Shown here: piece by piece, positions 7,930-58,479 of the stretch
Position numbering within the stretch: position 1 is the stretch's first letter
Layout of the letters: the number at the start of each line of letters is the position of its first letter
From: Ignavibacteriota bacterium
Lineage (GTDB): Bacteria; Bacteroidota; Ignavibacteria; Ignavibacteriales; Melioribacteraceae
Direction: 5' to 3'
Length of the DNA stretch: 64,000 nt
Assembly: GCA_002698995.1 (NCBI GenBank)
Contig: PAAX01000012.1
Span: forward strand, 1-64,000
The notes under the pieces: model-generated
What the model saw: only the letters and a program-made list of their open reading frames with translations
Told to the model about the DNA's origin: nothing
The model's database searches: none
Translations under genes and position numbers: made by a program

Positions 7930-9177
7930 ATGAAAAAATTTCTTACTACATTATTATTTCTTGGTCTATTCTCATTTAGCTTAATTGCTCAAGCACCAAT
8001 AATGAGTTTCGATTCAATGGCTGATAGTCCAAATTTTACAATATTAAATGAAGGACCGCCAAGCGCAGCAGTTTTATCTAACGAAACAATCGATTTTCAA
8101 GAAGGAAGCGGAGCATTAAAAGTTCAATATACAATCGGTTCATTTCATCCATGGGGTAGTTTTACAAGCTTGGTTTATAATAAACCTGAAGCTGCTCCTT
8201 TTATGGATTTTACCGGAAGCAGTTATTTAAAAATTTGGATTAAGGTATTAAATGCTCCTGCTAATCCCGATTTTATGTTTTTCCGTCTTCATATAGGTGA
8301 TCAGCCTAACGGTACCGGTCCGATTGAAGAGTACATTTATGAAAATGCAACTGCGTTAGATGCAGTTGGCGATTGGTTTGAATTGGAAATGCCTCTTATT
8401 GAAAGAGTAAGCGACGGCAATACAACTCCAAATAATGAAGGATTTGTTGTAATGCCTTTAGGTTGGGGAGGAGCTAGAAACAATGGTACATTGGATTTAG
8501 ATGCTATTGTGAATTTCACATTAGTAGCTACTACAATCGGCTGGACAGACCCCGCAAATATTCCAGCCGATTCAGTAACTGTTTTGTTTGATTTCTTTAA
8601 CAGAGACGGCGCCGTTATTCCGGTTGAGCTTACTTCTTTTTCTGCAGTTTCTTCAAATCAAGATGTAATACTTAATTGGATAACCGCTACAGAGGTTAAC
8701 AATCTTAGATTTGAAATCGAAAGAAAATCTCAAAATTCCGAATATCAAACAGTGGGCTCGGTACAAGGAAAAGGAACAACCACTGAAATTTCAAATTACA
8801 GTTTTGTAGATAAAAATCTTAATGAAGGAACTTATACTTACCGCTTAAAGCAAATAGATTTTGACGGTACAACAAGTTTCTCTAATGAAGTTGAAACAAC
8901 AATTGAAATTCCTCTTGAATACAGCTTAAATCAAAATTATCCTAATCCTTTTAATCCTTCTACCAGCATTGAATATTCTGTAGTAAGTAATGAATATGTT
9001 AGTCTTAAGGTTTATGATATTATAGGAAATGAAGTAGCAACCTTGGTAAACGAGAAGAAAGATGCGGGCAAATACAGTGTTAATTTTGATGCATCAAACC
9101 TTACAAGCGGAGTATATATTTATAAACTTTCTACAAACAATTTTGTACAAACCAAGAAAATGATGTTAGTAAAATAA
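7930..9177 (+). CDS. secreted T9SS cargo protein, unknown function
   Basis: Secreted protein of 415 residues. Signal peptide at 1-20 (MKKFLTTLLFLGLFSFSLIA, cut before QA). The N-terminal half resembles a beta-sandwich carbohydrate-binding or laminin-G-like module. A fibronectin-like region follows (VELTSFSAVSSNQDVILNWI, TYTYRLKQIDFDG), then the type IX sorting domain (QNYPNPFNPSTSIEYSV, YDIIGNEVATL, GVYIYKL, KKMMLVK). It should be exported by T9SS and anchored or released at the cell surface. A strong GGAGGAG site precedes the ATG, and a terminator follows. Confidence 0.85.
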   Translation: MKKFLTTLLFLGLFSFSLIAQAPIMSFDSMADSPNFTILNEGPPSAAVLSNETIDFQEGSGALKVQYTIGSFHPWGSFTSLVYNKPEAAPFMDFTGSSYLKIWIKVLNAPANPDFMFFRLHIGDQPNGTGPIEEYIYENATALDAVGDWFELEMPLIERVSDGNTTPNNEGFVVMPLGWGGARNNGTLDLDAIVNFTLVATTIGWTDPANIPADSVTVLFDFFNRDGAVIPVELTSFSAVSSNQDVILNWITATEVNNLRFEIERKSQNSEYQTVGSVQGKGTTTEISNYSFVDKNLNEGTYTYRLKQIDFDGTTSFSNEVETTIEIPLEYSLNQNYPNPFNPSTSIEYSVVSNEYVSLKVYDIIGNEVATLVNEKKDAGKYSVNFDASNLTSGVYIYKLSTNNFVQTKKMMLVK

Positions 9178-13940: not shown

Positions 13941-16604
13941 ATGAAAAAAGCTGTTCCAATCTTAACTGTAATTATATTTATCACATCTCTTTTTTTTATT
14001 CCAACTAAAAAAGAAATCAAATTACGCGGTCAATTTTCATCAAAAGATTTAAAGAATTCTTTTCCTTCAGAATATGAGTGGATGAAAAGAAGTTTCCCCC
14101 ATTTTAAAGTTGATCCTTCTGCACATTTAGAAGCACTCAAACAGACTAAAGAGTTAAGAGAATCCTCAAGATTAAATAAAAGCAAATCGCTGGAATGGGA
14201 GTTCTTGGGTCCGGTAAATATTGGAGGAAGAATTGCTGATATTGAATTCAATCCAGTTAATCCCAATATTGTTTATGCTGGAGCAGCGGCTGGAGGAGTA
14301 TTTAAATCTACTAATACCGGAGAAACATGGTTTCCGGTTTTTGATGATGCCTCAACTTTGATGATTGGCGACATTGCAGTTGATCCCGTTAATCCTGATG
14401 TAATTTATGTCGGTACAGGCGAACCGAATGGAAGTCATAATAATTTTCCCGGTACTGGTGTATATAAATCAACCGATGCGGGAAATACATGGACAAACAT
14501 TGGTTTAGAGTTGACTTCTAACATCGGAAGAGTGTTAGTCGATCCTAACGATAATAATATTGTTTATGTTGCTGCTGTAGGTTCTAACTTTGCACCACAT
14601 TCTGAAAGAGGATTATTCAAATCAACCAATGCAGGAGAAAGCTGGGAAAATATTCTTTTTGTTGATGATACAACCGGTTGTATTGATATTATTCTCGATC
14701 CCAATGATTCAAACTTTTTAATGGCTGCAATGTGGCACAGATACAGAAAACCCGGTTACGGACAATCTGAGACCTCATACGGAGCATCAGGAGGAATATT
14801 TAAAACTACCGACGGTGGAAATAACTGGGAAAAACTTGGTGCAGCAAACGGACTTCCAGTTAGTCCGGAAAGAATTGGTAAAATCGGTTTGACAATTTCT
14901 CCTTCAAACAGTAATGTGATTTATGCTTTATATAATGACGGCGGTGTTATTTCCGGTCTTTATAAATCAACAGATAAAGGTATTAACTGGCAGTTTTTTA
15001 GTCCGGATAACGGATTGCTGGACGGAGCCTCCAATTTCAGTTGGTACTTTGGTCAAGTTCGTGTTCATCCAACAAATCCAAATACAGTATTTGTTTTAGA
15101 TGTTGCTTTTATGAAATCAACAAACAGCGGTGGAAGCTGGCCCATAAATTATGGTTACGGCGGTCCATGGCAGCTTCATGTTGATCATCATGCGTTAGCT
15201 TTTCATCCTCAAAATCCCGAGTATATCATCAGCGGAAATGACGGCGGTATTAATATTTCAACCAACGGCGGATCAACTTGGTCTGAACCGAAGCATCTTC
15301 CTATTACTCAATATTATGAAATCGGACTGGATAAGTTAAATCCAAATGGATTATACGGCGGATCACAAGATAACAGCACTCATAGAACTTTAACCGGATC
15401 TTGGGATGATTGGGATATAATTCTTGGCGGAGATGGGTTTTACGTTAATGTAGATTACACAAATTCCAATATTATTTATGCAGAGTATCAATATGGTTCT
15501 TTATTCAAGTCTGTAGATGGCGGAAATAATTTTGACTATGTTACTCCAAATCTAAATTGGAATGAACCAACTAACTGGTCAACTCCAGTAATACTTGATC
15601 CAAATAATCCTAGTATAGTTTATTACGGCTCCAACAGATTATGGAGATCAACAAACGGAGGAAACAGCTGGACACCAATAAGCGAAGTACTTACCAGAAA
15701 TAATCCTGATTGGCCTAGATTCGGAACTCTTACAACAATTGCTGTTGGACCTTCTAATTCTAATGTGATTTATGTCGGTACCGACGACGGAAAAATCTGG
15801 GTTTCTTCAGATAACGGAACTACTTGGAAAGATATTACAAACACTTCTGTTGAAAGATGGGTAACAAGAGTCGTTCCGGATAATAATGATGAGAATATTA
15901 TCTATGCAACTTATTCGGGATTAAAATGGAGAGATCCCGATTCAAGAGTTTTCAAAAGTACAAATATGGGTGAAGATTGGATTGACATTTCATACAATCT
16001 ACCCGATGCACCGGTTAACTCGTTTGCAATCGATCCTTCATCACCAAATACTTTATATGCTGGATTAGATGTTGGAGTTTTTGTACTTAAAGGAAATGAA
16101 ACTTGGGAAGCATACGGAACCGGACTTCCAATTGTTACGGTTTATGATATGAAAGTTCATCCAACGACTAAAAAATTAATTATCGGGACACACGGAAGAT
16201 CGATGTATGGAATTGATACTGATGGTGCTGTGACTGTAAACGATGAATCCAACATCCCTGCTAATTTTGTACTTGAGCAGAATTATCCGAATCCTTTTAA
16301 TCCTACAACTACAATAAGTTTTTCAATCGCAGCACGCTCTGTCATTTCGACCTCGCCTTCAGGCGATGGGAGAAATCTTAAAGATTTCTCGTCGACTTCG
16401 TCTCCTCGAAATGACATCATGGAGGTTTCGTTAAAAGTTTATGATATTCTTGGTAATGAGGCGGCTACATTAGTGAACGAAACAAAATCACCCGGAAGTT
16501 ATCAAGTTTCTTGGAATGCATCTGAATTTGCAAGCGGAATTTATATTTACAGATTAACTTCCGGCAGCATCAATCTTTCTAAGAAAATGATTTTGATAAA
16601 ATAA
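13941..16604 (+). CDS. secreted BNR/sortilin-like beta-propeller protein with T9SS domain
   Basis: 887-residue secreted protein. An N-terminal membrane/signal segment is followed by a long series of BNR/Asp-box repeats (VFKSTNTGETWFP, VYKSTDAGNTWTN, LFKSTNAGESWEN, IWVSSDNGTTWKD) that form one or two beta-propellers, as in VPS10/sortilin-like and xyloglucanase proteins. The C-terminus is a type IX sorting domain (EQNYPNPFNPTTTISFSI ... YDILGNEAATLVNE ... KKMILIK). Between SFSIA and EVSLKVYD about 30 extra residues are encoded by an in-frame palindromic repeat (16340-16416). No catalytic residues are evident; surface-exposed role inferred. Confidence 0.88.
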   Translation: MKKAVPILTVIIFITSLFFIPTKKEIKLRGQFSSKDLKNSFPSEYEWMKRSFPHFKVDPSAHLEALKQTKELRESSRLNKSKSLEWEFLGPVNIGGRIADIEFNPVNPNIVYAGAAAGGVFKSTNTGETWFPVFDDASTLMIGDIAVDPVNPDVIYVGTGEPNGSHNNFPGTGVYKSTDAGNTWTNIGLELTSNIGRVLVDPNDNNIVYVAAVGSNFAPHSERGLFKSTNAGESWENILFVDDTTGCIDIILDPNDSNFLMAAMWHRYRKPGYGQSETSYGASGGIFKTTDGGNNWEKLGAANGLPVSPERIGKIGLTISPSNSNVIYALYNDGGVISGLYKSTDKGINWQFFSPDNGLLDGASNFSWYFGQVRVHPTNPNTVFVLDVAFMKSTNSGGSWPINYGYGGPWQLHVDHHALAFHPQNPEYIISGNDGGINISTNGGSTWSEPKHLPITQYYEIGLDKLNPNGLYGGSQDNSTHRTLTGSWDDWDIILGGDGFYVNVDYTNSNIIYAEYQYGSLFKSVDGGNNFDYVTPNLNWNEPTNWSTPVILDPNNPSIVYYGSNRLWRSTNGGNSWTPISEVLTRNNPDWPRFGTLTTIAVGPSNSNVIYVGTDDGKIWVSSDNGTTWKDITNTSVERWVTRVVPDNNDENIIYATYSGLKWRDPDSRVFKSTNMGEDWIDISYNLPDAPVNSFAIDPSSPNTLYAGLDVGVFVLKGNETWEAYGTGLPIVTVYDMKVHPTTKKLIIGTHGRSMYGIDTDGAVTVNDESNIPANFVLEQNYPNPFNPTTTISFSIAARSVISTSPSGDGRNLKDFSSTSSPRNDIMEVSLKVYDILGNEAATLVNETKSPGSYQVSWNASEFASGIYIYRLTSGSINLSKKMILIK
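16340..16416 (+). repeat. palindromic repeat element inside a coding region
   Basis: 77-base element bounded by an 11-bp inverted repeat (TGTCATTTCGA at 16340-16350, TCGAAATGACA at 16406-16416). It contains two more hairpins: TCGCC-TTCA-GGCGA (16353-16366) and GAGAAATCT-TAA-AGATTTCTC (16370-16390). It keeps the reading frame open and adds about 30 residues to the T9SS sorting domain. Its design is that of an intergenic hairpin repeat. Confidence 0.85.
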
Positions 16605-19996: not shown

Positions 19997-20182
19997 GGGA
20001 GCCGTCTCAAAAGATTAAAATTGTCATTGCGAAGCGGTTTTTGCTGAAGCCTGCCTCGCTTCGCTTTGCAAGGCGGGCAATCTTTCTTTTTTAGCTAAAA
20101 ATGAGATCACTTCGCTTCCTGCCTCGCTTTGCTCAGCAAGGCGGGCGCTCGTGATGACAAAAGTCAATTTGAGACAGCCCTC
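19997..20182. repeat. composite MITE-like repeat with nested inverted repeats
   Basis: Bounded by imperfect inverted ends (GGGAGCCGTCTCAAA at 19997-20011, TTTGAGACAGCCCTC at 20168-20182). Inside is a second pair (TTGTCATTGCGA at 20021-20032, TCGTGATGACAA at 20149-20160), and inside that are GCCTGCC...GGCGGGC modules. There is no open reading frame. It lies in the 380-base gap between the barrel cluster and the nrf porin; the rest of the gap (19819-19996) shows only the promoter-like region of the barrel gene. Confidence 0.75.
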
Positions 20183-53042: not shown

Positions 53043-53133
53043 GAGATGCCGGTATTGTTGAAAATCCAGTAATTAGGCAAGACACGTTTTATTCAAGGTC
53101 ATTCCGGCTGAACGAAGAGAGTGCCGGAATCTC
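53043..53133. repeat. decayed hairpin repeats before gyrA
   Basis: First a half-decayed CATGCCGG-family copy (GAGATGCCGGTATT at 53043; its partner arm is eroded to AGGCAAGACA). Then an intact CATTCCGG-family copy, GTCATTCCGGC ... GCCGGAATCTC (53098-53133), with its own tip. They separate the toxin-antitoxin pair from gyrA. Confidence 0.7.
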
Positions 53134-57083: not shown

Positions 57084-57278
57084 TATCATTCCAAGACAGT
57101 AATCCTAAATTAAATAATAATTGTCATTCCGGCTGAGCGAAGCGAATGCCGGAATCTCAAAACACAGATGCCGATATTCCAACACAAATCCAAATTAGTC
57201 TATGCGGGAACCGGCATGATATAATAGAATTGTGATACCGAACTGCATTTGTAGAGACGTAGCATCGCTACGTCTCTA
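57076..57278 (+). repeat. 203-bp direct repeat, left copy
   Basis: Matches 58143-58345 over 203 bases without gaps, about 11 mismatches by eye (near 95% identity). It contains a CATTCCGG hairpin (57122-57158), a CATGCCGG hairpin (57167-57219) and a GTAGAGACGTAGC hairpin (57250-57278). The two copies flank the higBA toxin-antitoxin pair. Confidence 0.9.
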
Positions 57279-58150: not shown

Positions 58151-58345
58151 TATCATTCCAAGACAGTAATCCAAAATTAAAGAATAATTGTCATTCCGGC
58201 TGAGCGAAGCGAATGCCGGAATCTCAAAACACAGATGCCGGTATTCCAACACAAATCCAAATTAGTCTATGCGGGAACCGGCATGACGTAATAGCATTCT
58301 TATACCGAACGGCATTTGTAGAGACGTAGCGCCGCTACGTCTCTA
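58143..58345 (+). repeat. 203-bp direct repeat, right copy
   Basis: Right partner of 57076-57278, offset 1067 bases, same internal order of three hairpins. Its last hairpin (58317-58347) is a nearly perfect palindrome TGTAGAGACGTAGCG/CGCTACGTCTCTACA. Confidence 0.9.
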
Positions 58346-58479
58346 CAGAATAAAAAATACAAAAACAATAACACACTTGCTCATCTTAAAATCAAACCAT
58401 ATATTTCAAACTGAATAAAATGATATGTTAATCATTTCGTTATGATTTAGAAGTTCTGTTAAAATAAAAATTCATAAAC

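Follow-up and report, generated by a model that had tools for sequence, protein, structure and literature searches.

A palindromic element splits a T9SS sorting domain

The stretch of DNA analysed here (the window) comprises 64,000 nucleotides of contig PAAX01000012.1 from an Ignavibacteriota bacterium of the Melioribacteraceae, and the feature of interest is a 77-nt palindromic element lying in frame within the C-terminal sorting domain (CTD) of a protein of the type IX secretion system (T9SS) cargo kind. The open reading frame (ORF) of this protein is uninterrupted across the palindrome. Its CTD was assigned as a T9SS type A sorting domain based on a PF18962 score above the cut-off of 27, its C-terminal position and a predicted Ig-like sandwich; with TIGR04183 the score was 20.8, under the model cut-off of 23. 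Coordinates are collected in Table 1.

Table 1. Features of the window discussed in the text.
Feature	Position	Strand	Basis
887-aa exported protein, Sortilin-Vps10/BNR-like repeats and C-terminal T9SS sorting domain	13941..16604	+	ORF; PF15902 95 bits, PF18962 34.2 bits
T9SS type A sorting domain (CTD), YPNPF to C-terminus, insert-split	16284..16601	+	PF18962 match 16284-16592
77-nt palindromic element TGTCATTTCGA...TCGAAATGACA, translated (S)VIST...SSPRND(I)	16340..16416	.	direct reading, DNA fold, dispersed copies
Inner hairpin 1, CCTCGCC-TTCA-GGCGATGG	16351..16369	+	DNA fold
Inner hairpin 2, GAGAAATCT-TAA-AGATTTCTC	16370..16390	+	DNA fold
Second CTD, standard 24-residue N-part, insert-free, internal control	8938..9174	+	
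GTAG...CTAC-type palindrome TGTAGAGACGTAGCATCGCTACGTCTCTA, same type as VETL CTD inserts, outside long frames	57250..57278	.	
Second GTAG...CTAC-type copy, TGTAGAGACGTAGCGCCGCTACGTCTCTACA	58317..58347	.	

The ends of the element are read on the same strand, at 16340-16350 and 16406-16416. Folded as single-stranded DNA, the 77 nt form an 11-bp outer stem and three hairpins, one at about 16351-16369, one of 9 bp at 16370-16390 and a third that is tiny. The fold energy was -20.7 kcal/mol, compared with -8.2 (sd 2.2) for shuffled sequences (z -5.6), and none of 200 shuffles was as good, which confirms the palindrome with inner hairpins described in an earlier reading of this DNA (the sequence-only reading). 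An Rfam search returned one sub-threshold chance match only, and membership of an Rfam RNA family was rejected on that basis.

An AlphaFold2 model of the CTD (mean pLDDT 84) was used to locate the insert. Strands are modelled at residues 18-25 before the insert and at 56-64, 69-78, 81-88, 95-103 and 106-114 after it, with the insert as a low-confidence loop at about residues 29-54. In the model the insert thus occupies the beta1-beta2 turn, which joins the first two long strands, in agreement with the sequence-only reading, which had put it between the first strands. The insert-bearing CTD still folds in this model, strands kept and insert as a loop, and the turn is probably exposed. Foldseek, queried with the model, retrieved Ig-like folds, with the mirolase CTD 8qb1 (E 3.2e-3) and a T9SS complex chain among the first eight; there were no matches at E 1e-3, and unrelated Ig folds score equally or better. 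As to length, the earlier reading had proposed an in-frame gain of about 30 residues. The frame is indeed open throughout, but the gain amounts to 27 residues, the N-part of the domain (YPNPF to the next motif) measuring 51 residues in place of the usual 24. The other T9SS protein of the window (7930-9177) had been said to lack an insert, and its CTD does have the standard turn.

Homologues of the window protein were also inspected. Eleven were fetched (L285-L295; L, C and G numbers denote loci, contigs and genomes), and the CTDs of eight were read, L293-L295 being left out. Seven of the eight (L285-L288 and L290-L292) are without the element, including the two closest, at 62-63% identity; L285 has a short unrelated extension at the turn. 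The eighth, L289, carries a different imperfect palindrome at the same turn, read as VVDANFAPTT. The homologues are too diverged at the DNA level to display the exact empty site of the window element.

Turn lengths and palindrome families in the source genome

The source genome (4.23 Mb, 36 contigs) contains 145 places matching PF18962 at E up to 10. They yielded 135 distinct domain strings, of which 127 were sufficiently complete for length determination; the weak places C25:91288 and C23:4-156 were left out. The N-part spans 24 residues in 106 CTDs and is longer in 21 (27 to 61), and no CTD has a shorter one. Palindromes of six families, some decayed and assigned by family resemblance, are present in 14 of the 21 long turns: GTAGAGACGTTGCRTGCAACGTCTC in six, the GTCATTTCGA type (including that of the window), the GTCATTGCGA type and the GTAGGGACAACTCATGAGTTGTCC type in two each, and GTAGGGGACGCAAACTTTGCATCCCCTAC and GTAGAGAAGGGGCATGCCCCGTCTTTAC in one each. 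A further CTD at C28:194797, frameshifted upstream and outside the 127, carries a GTCATTGCAAG element. Decayed CTDs of this genome are L083 (C28:194588-195258), frameshifted just after PNPF, and L134 (C15:192726), with a stop within the domain.

When scored for a stem against dinucleotide shuffles, long turns of the source genome reached p<=0.01 in 8 of 19 cases and p<=0.05 in 10, and long turns from relatives reached p<=0.01 in 20 of 68 (a list of 70 rows that includes two own-genome repeats, L161 and L211). Among insert-free CTD segments, used as controls, the figure was 2 of 214 at p<=0.01. Multi-hairpin inserts are under-counted here, because the score takes one stem only. These statistics bear on the alternative that the long turns are ordinary loop extensions in which a palindrome is incidental or acts only as mRNA structure. 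Loop length in T9SS CTDs does vary in general, according to the available text of PMC11285876, and seven of the long turns have no recognised palindrome. The stem statistics, the presence of different families at one point and the occurrence of the same DNA outside genes nevertheless make this explanation very improbable.

Dispersed copies inside and outside genes

The genome was searched for the element, as the sequence-only reading had suggested. The pattern GTCATTYCGAN{10,40}GAGAAATCT gave 17 matches and its reversed control none; the copies are dispersed, the majority of them outside long frames. As copies also occur outside genes, the candidate explanation of a unique protein extension was rejected. 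An exact search for TGTAGAGACG gave 14 matches (reversed control, 6), four in CTD turns and ten, at nine places, outside 90-aa frames. With GTCATTKCGAR, 39 exact matches were obtained (reversed control, 6). Fifteen of these read GTCATTGCGAA, and the 13 fetched represent a separate element; the other 24 include four CTD turns, one match in a 648-aa frame, five belonging to an N-terminal array and 12 outside 120-aa frames, two of the 24 being unread (places left unread include C31:373947, C34:36827 and two on C36). For the GTAGGGACAACTCATGAGTTGTCCCTAC palindrome, searched as GACAACTCATGAGTTGTC with one mismatch, 14 places were found (reversed control, 0): one CTD turn, three turns of an FN3-like domain, one in frame in a transposase gene and nine outside frames, two of which flank that gene. 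The FN3-like turn lies upstream of the CTD and reads FEIQR-SVGTTHELSLQ-WEKIGFV.

The in-frame places of these three exact-match searches (the third with its one mismatch) thus comprise nine CTD turns (the CTD of one is frameshifted), three at a further turn in exported proteins of this kind, and one each in the transposase gene, the 648-aa frame and the N-terminal array. A preference of coding copies for this turn of T9SS domains, which the sequence-only reading had proposed to test, is supported. Expressed as density, the nine places amount to about 3 copies per kb of CTD turn, or 2 if VETL is counted a single time; non-coding DNA has about 0.06 per kb. The inputs were 24 nt per turn and the 11.7% of the window outside ORFs.

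The reading frame of entry is also biased. Elements start in codon phase 0 in 27 of 30 cases for GTCAT, 7 of 7 for GTCACTC and 28 of 28 for GTAG (62 of 65 in total); GTAG letters in the rest of the domain show a similar but weaker bias (32 of 44). The bias fits selection against stops, perhaps also against cysteines, and target choice would fit as well. Target-directed insertion, in which a transposase (or several) or microhomology prefers the DNA of the turn as a genuine landing pad, would explain the fixed place, the phase-0 starts and the density above non-coding DNA. Possible microhomologies can be pointed to: the element ends GTCATTCCGA and AATGAC are similar to ATTCCA.. and AATGTNAC, and in G183, a genome from the family to which the window belongs, an element end, GTCATTCCGAG, falls on the codons for VIPS. 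The GTAG letters in the rest of the domain are, however, also mostly in phase 0, and phase is partly forced by stop codons in other frames; no matching flank is apparent by eye beside copies that lie outside genes; and the site is used by unrelated families, one of which also enters the FN3-like turn. Directed insertion is considered unlikely.

Turns in other genomes

When the insert-bearing turn was searched against 391 genomes of the class, 44 matched at E<=1e-4, many only via the conserved LKVYDILGNEVATLV part, and a search with the VETL turn matched 108 of 391 at E<=1e-5, partly via conserved parts. Insert-bearing queries were used to find the relatives, so the proportion of long turns among them does not measure prevalence; in their string list 75 of 82 are long or unmeasured, including the own-genome repeats L161 and L211 and non-CTDs in L171 and L218. 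The beta1-beta2 turn of other genera holds families not seen in CTDs of the source genome, namely GTCATCCTTCGACAGGCTCAGGATGAC, GTCATGGTGAGCC..AACCATGAC, GTCACTCTTCGACAAGCTCAGAGTGAC, GTAGCACAG..CTGTGCTAC, GTAATGACAGGG..CCCTGTCATTAC, GTAGGGGCTGAAC..GTTCAGCCCTTAC, GTAGAGCGAG.. and TCCCCTTT..AAAGGGG. Translations of such inserts include VILRQAQDD, VMVSLSNHD, VTLRQAQSD and SSTEYYSVLQ, together with GTAGAGAC variants, and two or more elements are arranged in tandem or nested in L166, L210, L300, L304-L306 and L310. One turn is repeatedly used by different families in different genera.

The distribution of CTTCGACARGCTCAGRRTGAC was followed in four genomes, where 26 matches fell in three and the reversed control gave none. 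Nine lie in eight intact CTD turns, one in a CTD remnant, eight in one array, one within a 596-aa frame, one at the end of a 113-aa frame and six elsewhere. The remnant, L318 (G332:C51), has a broken frame and retains its VTLRQAQSD element.

Comparable turns were found in metagenome-assembled genomes (MAGs) of Ignavibacteria/Ignavibacteriae (L344, L386, L416, L421), Chlorobiota (L343) and Bacteroidetes (L342). The loop of L421, from an Ignavibacteria bacterium, is letter-identical to that of L197 of G183. In the MAG sample, itself found with VETL-type turns, 58 of 80 turns are of standard length.

Copying and selection among paralogous domains

A tree of the 127 CTDs was built with the turn excluded (74 columns; 79 of 123 inner branches open). 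By parsimony, ten changes are required for inserts and three for the six VETL inserts. L002, with a GTCATTTCGA insert (element A), and L114, with a VETL insert (element C), are close neighbours, as are the insert-free L074 and L080. A single common ancestor of all inserts was rejected, given that the palindromes are unrelated; the CTD tree alone cannot exclude it.

Within the six VETL-type CTDs the insert is 87-95% identical, including its tail SQMQN, compared with 66-84% for the C-terminal and 73-88% for the N-terminal part of the domain. That the insert is more alike than the C-terminal part suggests that it was copied between paralogues. In G183, at least 11 of the inserts read are related to one another, with 13 search matches. 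It could be asked whether few original insertions were followed by gene conversion or duplication among the approximately 140 paralogous domains, with the variety of families arising by exchange inside palindromes. Both the VETL identities and the number of related inserts in G183 favour such spread. Insert-bearing CTDs do not group in the tree, on the other hand, albeit that the tree is weakly resolved and its well-supported branches force one change only. No core is shared by GTAG- and GTCA-type palindromes, which calls for several origins. We give spread from few insertions somewhat less than an even chance; it is compatible with the explanation preferred below, as its second step.

Proportions of nonsynonymous (pN) and synonymous (pS) differences gave a mixed answer to the suggestion that conservation as protein, but not as palindrome, would speak against a DNA element. 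Inserts of G183 have pN 0.34 and pS 0.35 (flanks, 0.17 and 0.50), and those of the VETLRATSQMQN (VETL) family pN 0.04 and pS 0.23 (flanks, 0.17 and 0.63), the latter from few differences and non-independent pairs. A longer turn might itself be useful, by tuning cargo recognition or processing or by lowering recombination between near-identical CTDs, and be kept by selection. The amino acid conservation of VETL inserts and the density above non-coding DNA would agree with this, but the G183 inserts drift freely and 106 of 127 CTDs keep the standard turn; we regard a useful turn as unlikely.

Origin of the inserts

The explanation that we find probable is that palindromes of the mobile repetitive extragenic palindromic (REP) type meet a permissive turn, with partial copying among paralogues. 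One copy of a small REP/REPIN-type palindrome, itself non-autonomous, would have landed in DNA for the hairpin tip between beta1 and beta2 of a T9SS CTD, and such landings would have been repeated many times by several palindrome families. They may be frequent at this turn because it is probably exposed and lies outside the CTD parts needed for secretion. If a palindrome has no stop in the frame that is needed, it would add a peptide spacer to a CTD that still folds, and the protein would presumably still be secreted. Once present, the insert may have spread to paralogous CTDs through gene conversion or through duplication. Movement of such elements by a REP-associated tyrosine transposase seems plausible in view of the gene described below.

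Several observations weigh against this explanation. The GTCATTTCGA element is absent from the loci of all four Y1 genes (L030-L033), and no clear target-site duplication, of the kind that marks a MITE, is evident by eye beside 16340 and 16416; nor was a shared target sequence seen, the flanks, compared by eye only, showing no match. Besides the seven long turns of the source genome without a recognised palindrome, 5 of the 14 palindrome-bearing turns fail the stem test at p 0.05, either through decay or because they form multiple hairpins; in relatives, several long turns lack a palindrome, some holding other simple repeats. The well-supported branches of the CTD tree and the conserved amino acids of the VETL inserts, with the limits given above, count on the same side, and expression and secretion of all insert-bearing proteins are predicted only. 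The density at the CTD turn is about 30- to 50-fold that of non-coding DNA by a rough hand estimate, so that neutral tolerance alone is insufficient. It is conceivable, if rather unlikely, that in this class of bacteria palindromes are either steered to the turn (by target choice or microhomology) or selected there, and so diversify the approximately 140 near-identical export signals of a genome.

Further insertion sites and repeats

A second CTD insertion site lies directly after YPNPF and holds GGCGGA-type or other small palindromes in L299, L206, L210, L230 and L013; in L299, TTCCGCCAGAGGCGGATCCGCCTTTGGCGGAA is read as SARGGSAFGG. The FN3-like beta-turn of T9SS cargo, FE[IV]QR..WEKIGFV, contains several kinds of in-frame palindrome in L428, L434, L435, L141, L301, L307, L355 and L410; L428 and L434 are almost the same and could represent a single event. 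The N-terminal array mentioned above (L281-L283, C31:21718-22001) consists of GTCATTTCGA-type repeats read in frame. It is located in the signal region of an amidohydrolase-like protein, with MINKTKN on one side and the hydrophobic stretch on the other, and this protein may in fact begin downstream. L331-L338 (G280:C18:27894-28082) form a tandem array of eight 24-nt copies of CTTCGACAAGCTCAGARTGAC, whose open frame reads SLSKSVTLSLSK. Two other repeats occur in the window. GTCATTGCGAAGCGGTTTTTGCTGAAGC, near GGGCTGTCTCAAA-like ends, is a separate dispersed element present at 20023 and at 12 further places, none in a 90-aa frame. Repeats of the GTCATTCCGGCTGAGCGAAGCGAATGCCGGAATCTC type lie at 53098, 57123 and 58190, the last two within a 210-nt duplication.

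Comparison with known systems

In-frame palindromes are already known, from Rickettsia and among REPs. No report of palindromes in T9SS sorting domains, or of repeated palindrome capture at one secretion-signal turn, was found in the open-licence PMC literature searched (titles and abstract starts, without supplements). The turn amounts to a natural, repeated experiment on the conversion of selfish DNA into protein, with one structural site, many inserts from several families and insert-free sisters in the same genome. It indicates where a secretion signal can lengthen without apparent loss, and makes the question of whether protein-coding palindromes are tolerated or actively placed directly testable.

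A link to a transposase is provided by the GTAGGGACAACTCATGAGTTGTCCCTAC family. L033:1259-1993 (contig C31 of the source genome, about 260985-261710) holds a REP-associated tyrosine transposase gene with its own double-foot REP. Copies of GTAGGGACAACTCATGAGTTGTCCCTAC at 1259 and 1967 flank the gene, and a third at 1642 lies in frame within 1348-1893, between NHFH and YIEENP. The protein has NHFH and WQ motifs, its third motif being YIEENP where TnpAREP subclass 2.4 has YIxNNP; it scores 64.7 bits with NF047646 (REP_Tyr_transpos), below the cut-off of 80, and 27.5 with PF01797 (cut-off 23). In subclass 2.4, as described in the available text of PMC6006769, double-foot REPs adjoin tyrosine transposase genes and interrupt them in frame, and in-frame REP insertions elsewhere are called tolerable in linkers or loops. 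The GTAGGGACAACTCATGAGTTGTCCCTAC family resembles this TnpAREP (RAYT) subclass in carrying 5' GT[AG]G with the complement C[TC]AC at the 3' end of the hairpin, as a GTAG/CTAC palindrome, and in having copies less than 1 kb from the NHFH/WQ tnpAREP gene as well as in frame between its HuH and Y motifs. Unlike what that text describes, GTAGGGACAACTCATGAGTTGTCCCTAC also occupies turns of T9SS cargo domains here. The window element differs further, since it ends in TGTC..GACA and not in the GTAG/CTAC feet of a double-foot REP, and no transposase was found for it.

In shape the window element is reminiscent of the CGTC-tagged REPs. According to the available text of PMC3733652, GTAG- and CGTC-tagged REPs are small dispersed palindromes, mostly intergenic with some in frames, and occur in Chlorobi and Bacteroidetes among others. 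CGTC-tagged REPs have a terminal CGTC (often TGTC) and an 8-9 bp stem beginning AT, form head-to-head dimers and apparently have no dedicated transposase. In the window element each half has TGTC followed by ATTTC..GAAAT, the halves being inverted, with a stem of only 5 bp by eye; the likeness was judged by description. Intragenic REPs are reported there from varied unrelated proteins, at sites that differ within a functional category except in recB of two Xanthomonas species. The same text, apart from its supplementary list of intragenic REPs, which lay outside this comparison, mentions no secretion signal.

The sequence-only reading had likened the insert to Rickettsia palindromic elements (RPEs). 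The likeness holds in that palindromic DNA is tolerated in frame within protein genes. RPEs are, however, 105-146 bp long and fused in frame in 19 frames of many proteins (available text of PMC2229807), whereas the present element is 77 nt and from a distant taxon, and the text describes no single favoured structural site; identity with RPEs is also disfavoured by the six palindrome families that share the site in one genome. The nearest Rickettsia link is instead the CGTC super-family, which has TGTC-beginning variants and includes RPE-4 and RPE-6 (PMC3733652, as available).

With regard to the host domain, the T9SS CTD is described as a seven-stranded Ig-like sandwich in the available text of PMC11285876, in which replacement of three residues by eleven in loop beta5-beta6 of RgpB was tolerated, and secretion was shown experimentally in Porphyromonas to need the C-terminal motif and loop beta3-beta4. 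A mobile-DNA origin of loop variation is not discussed in that text.

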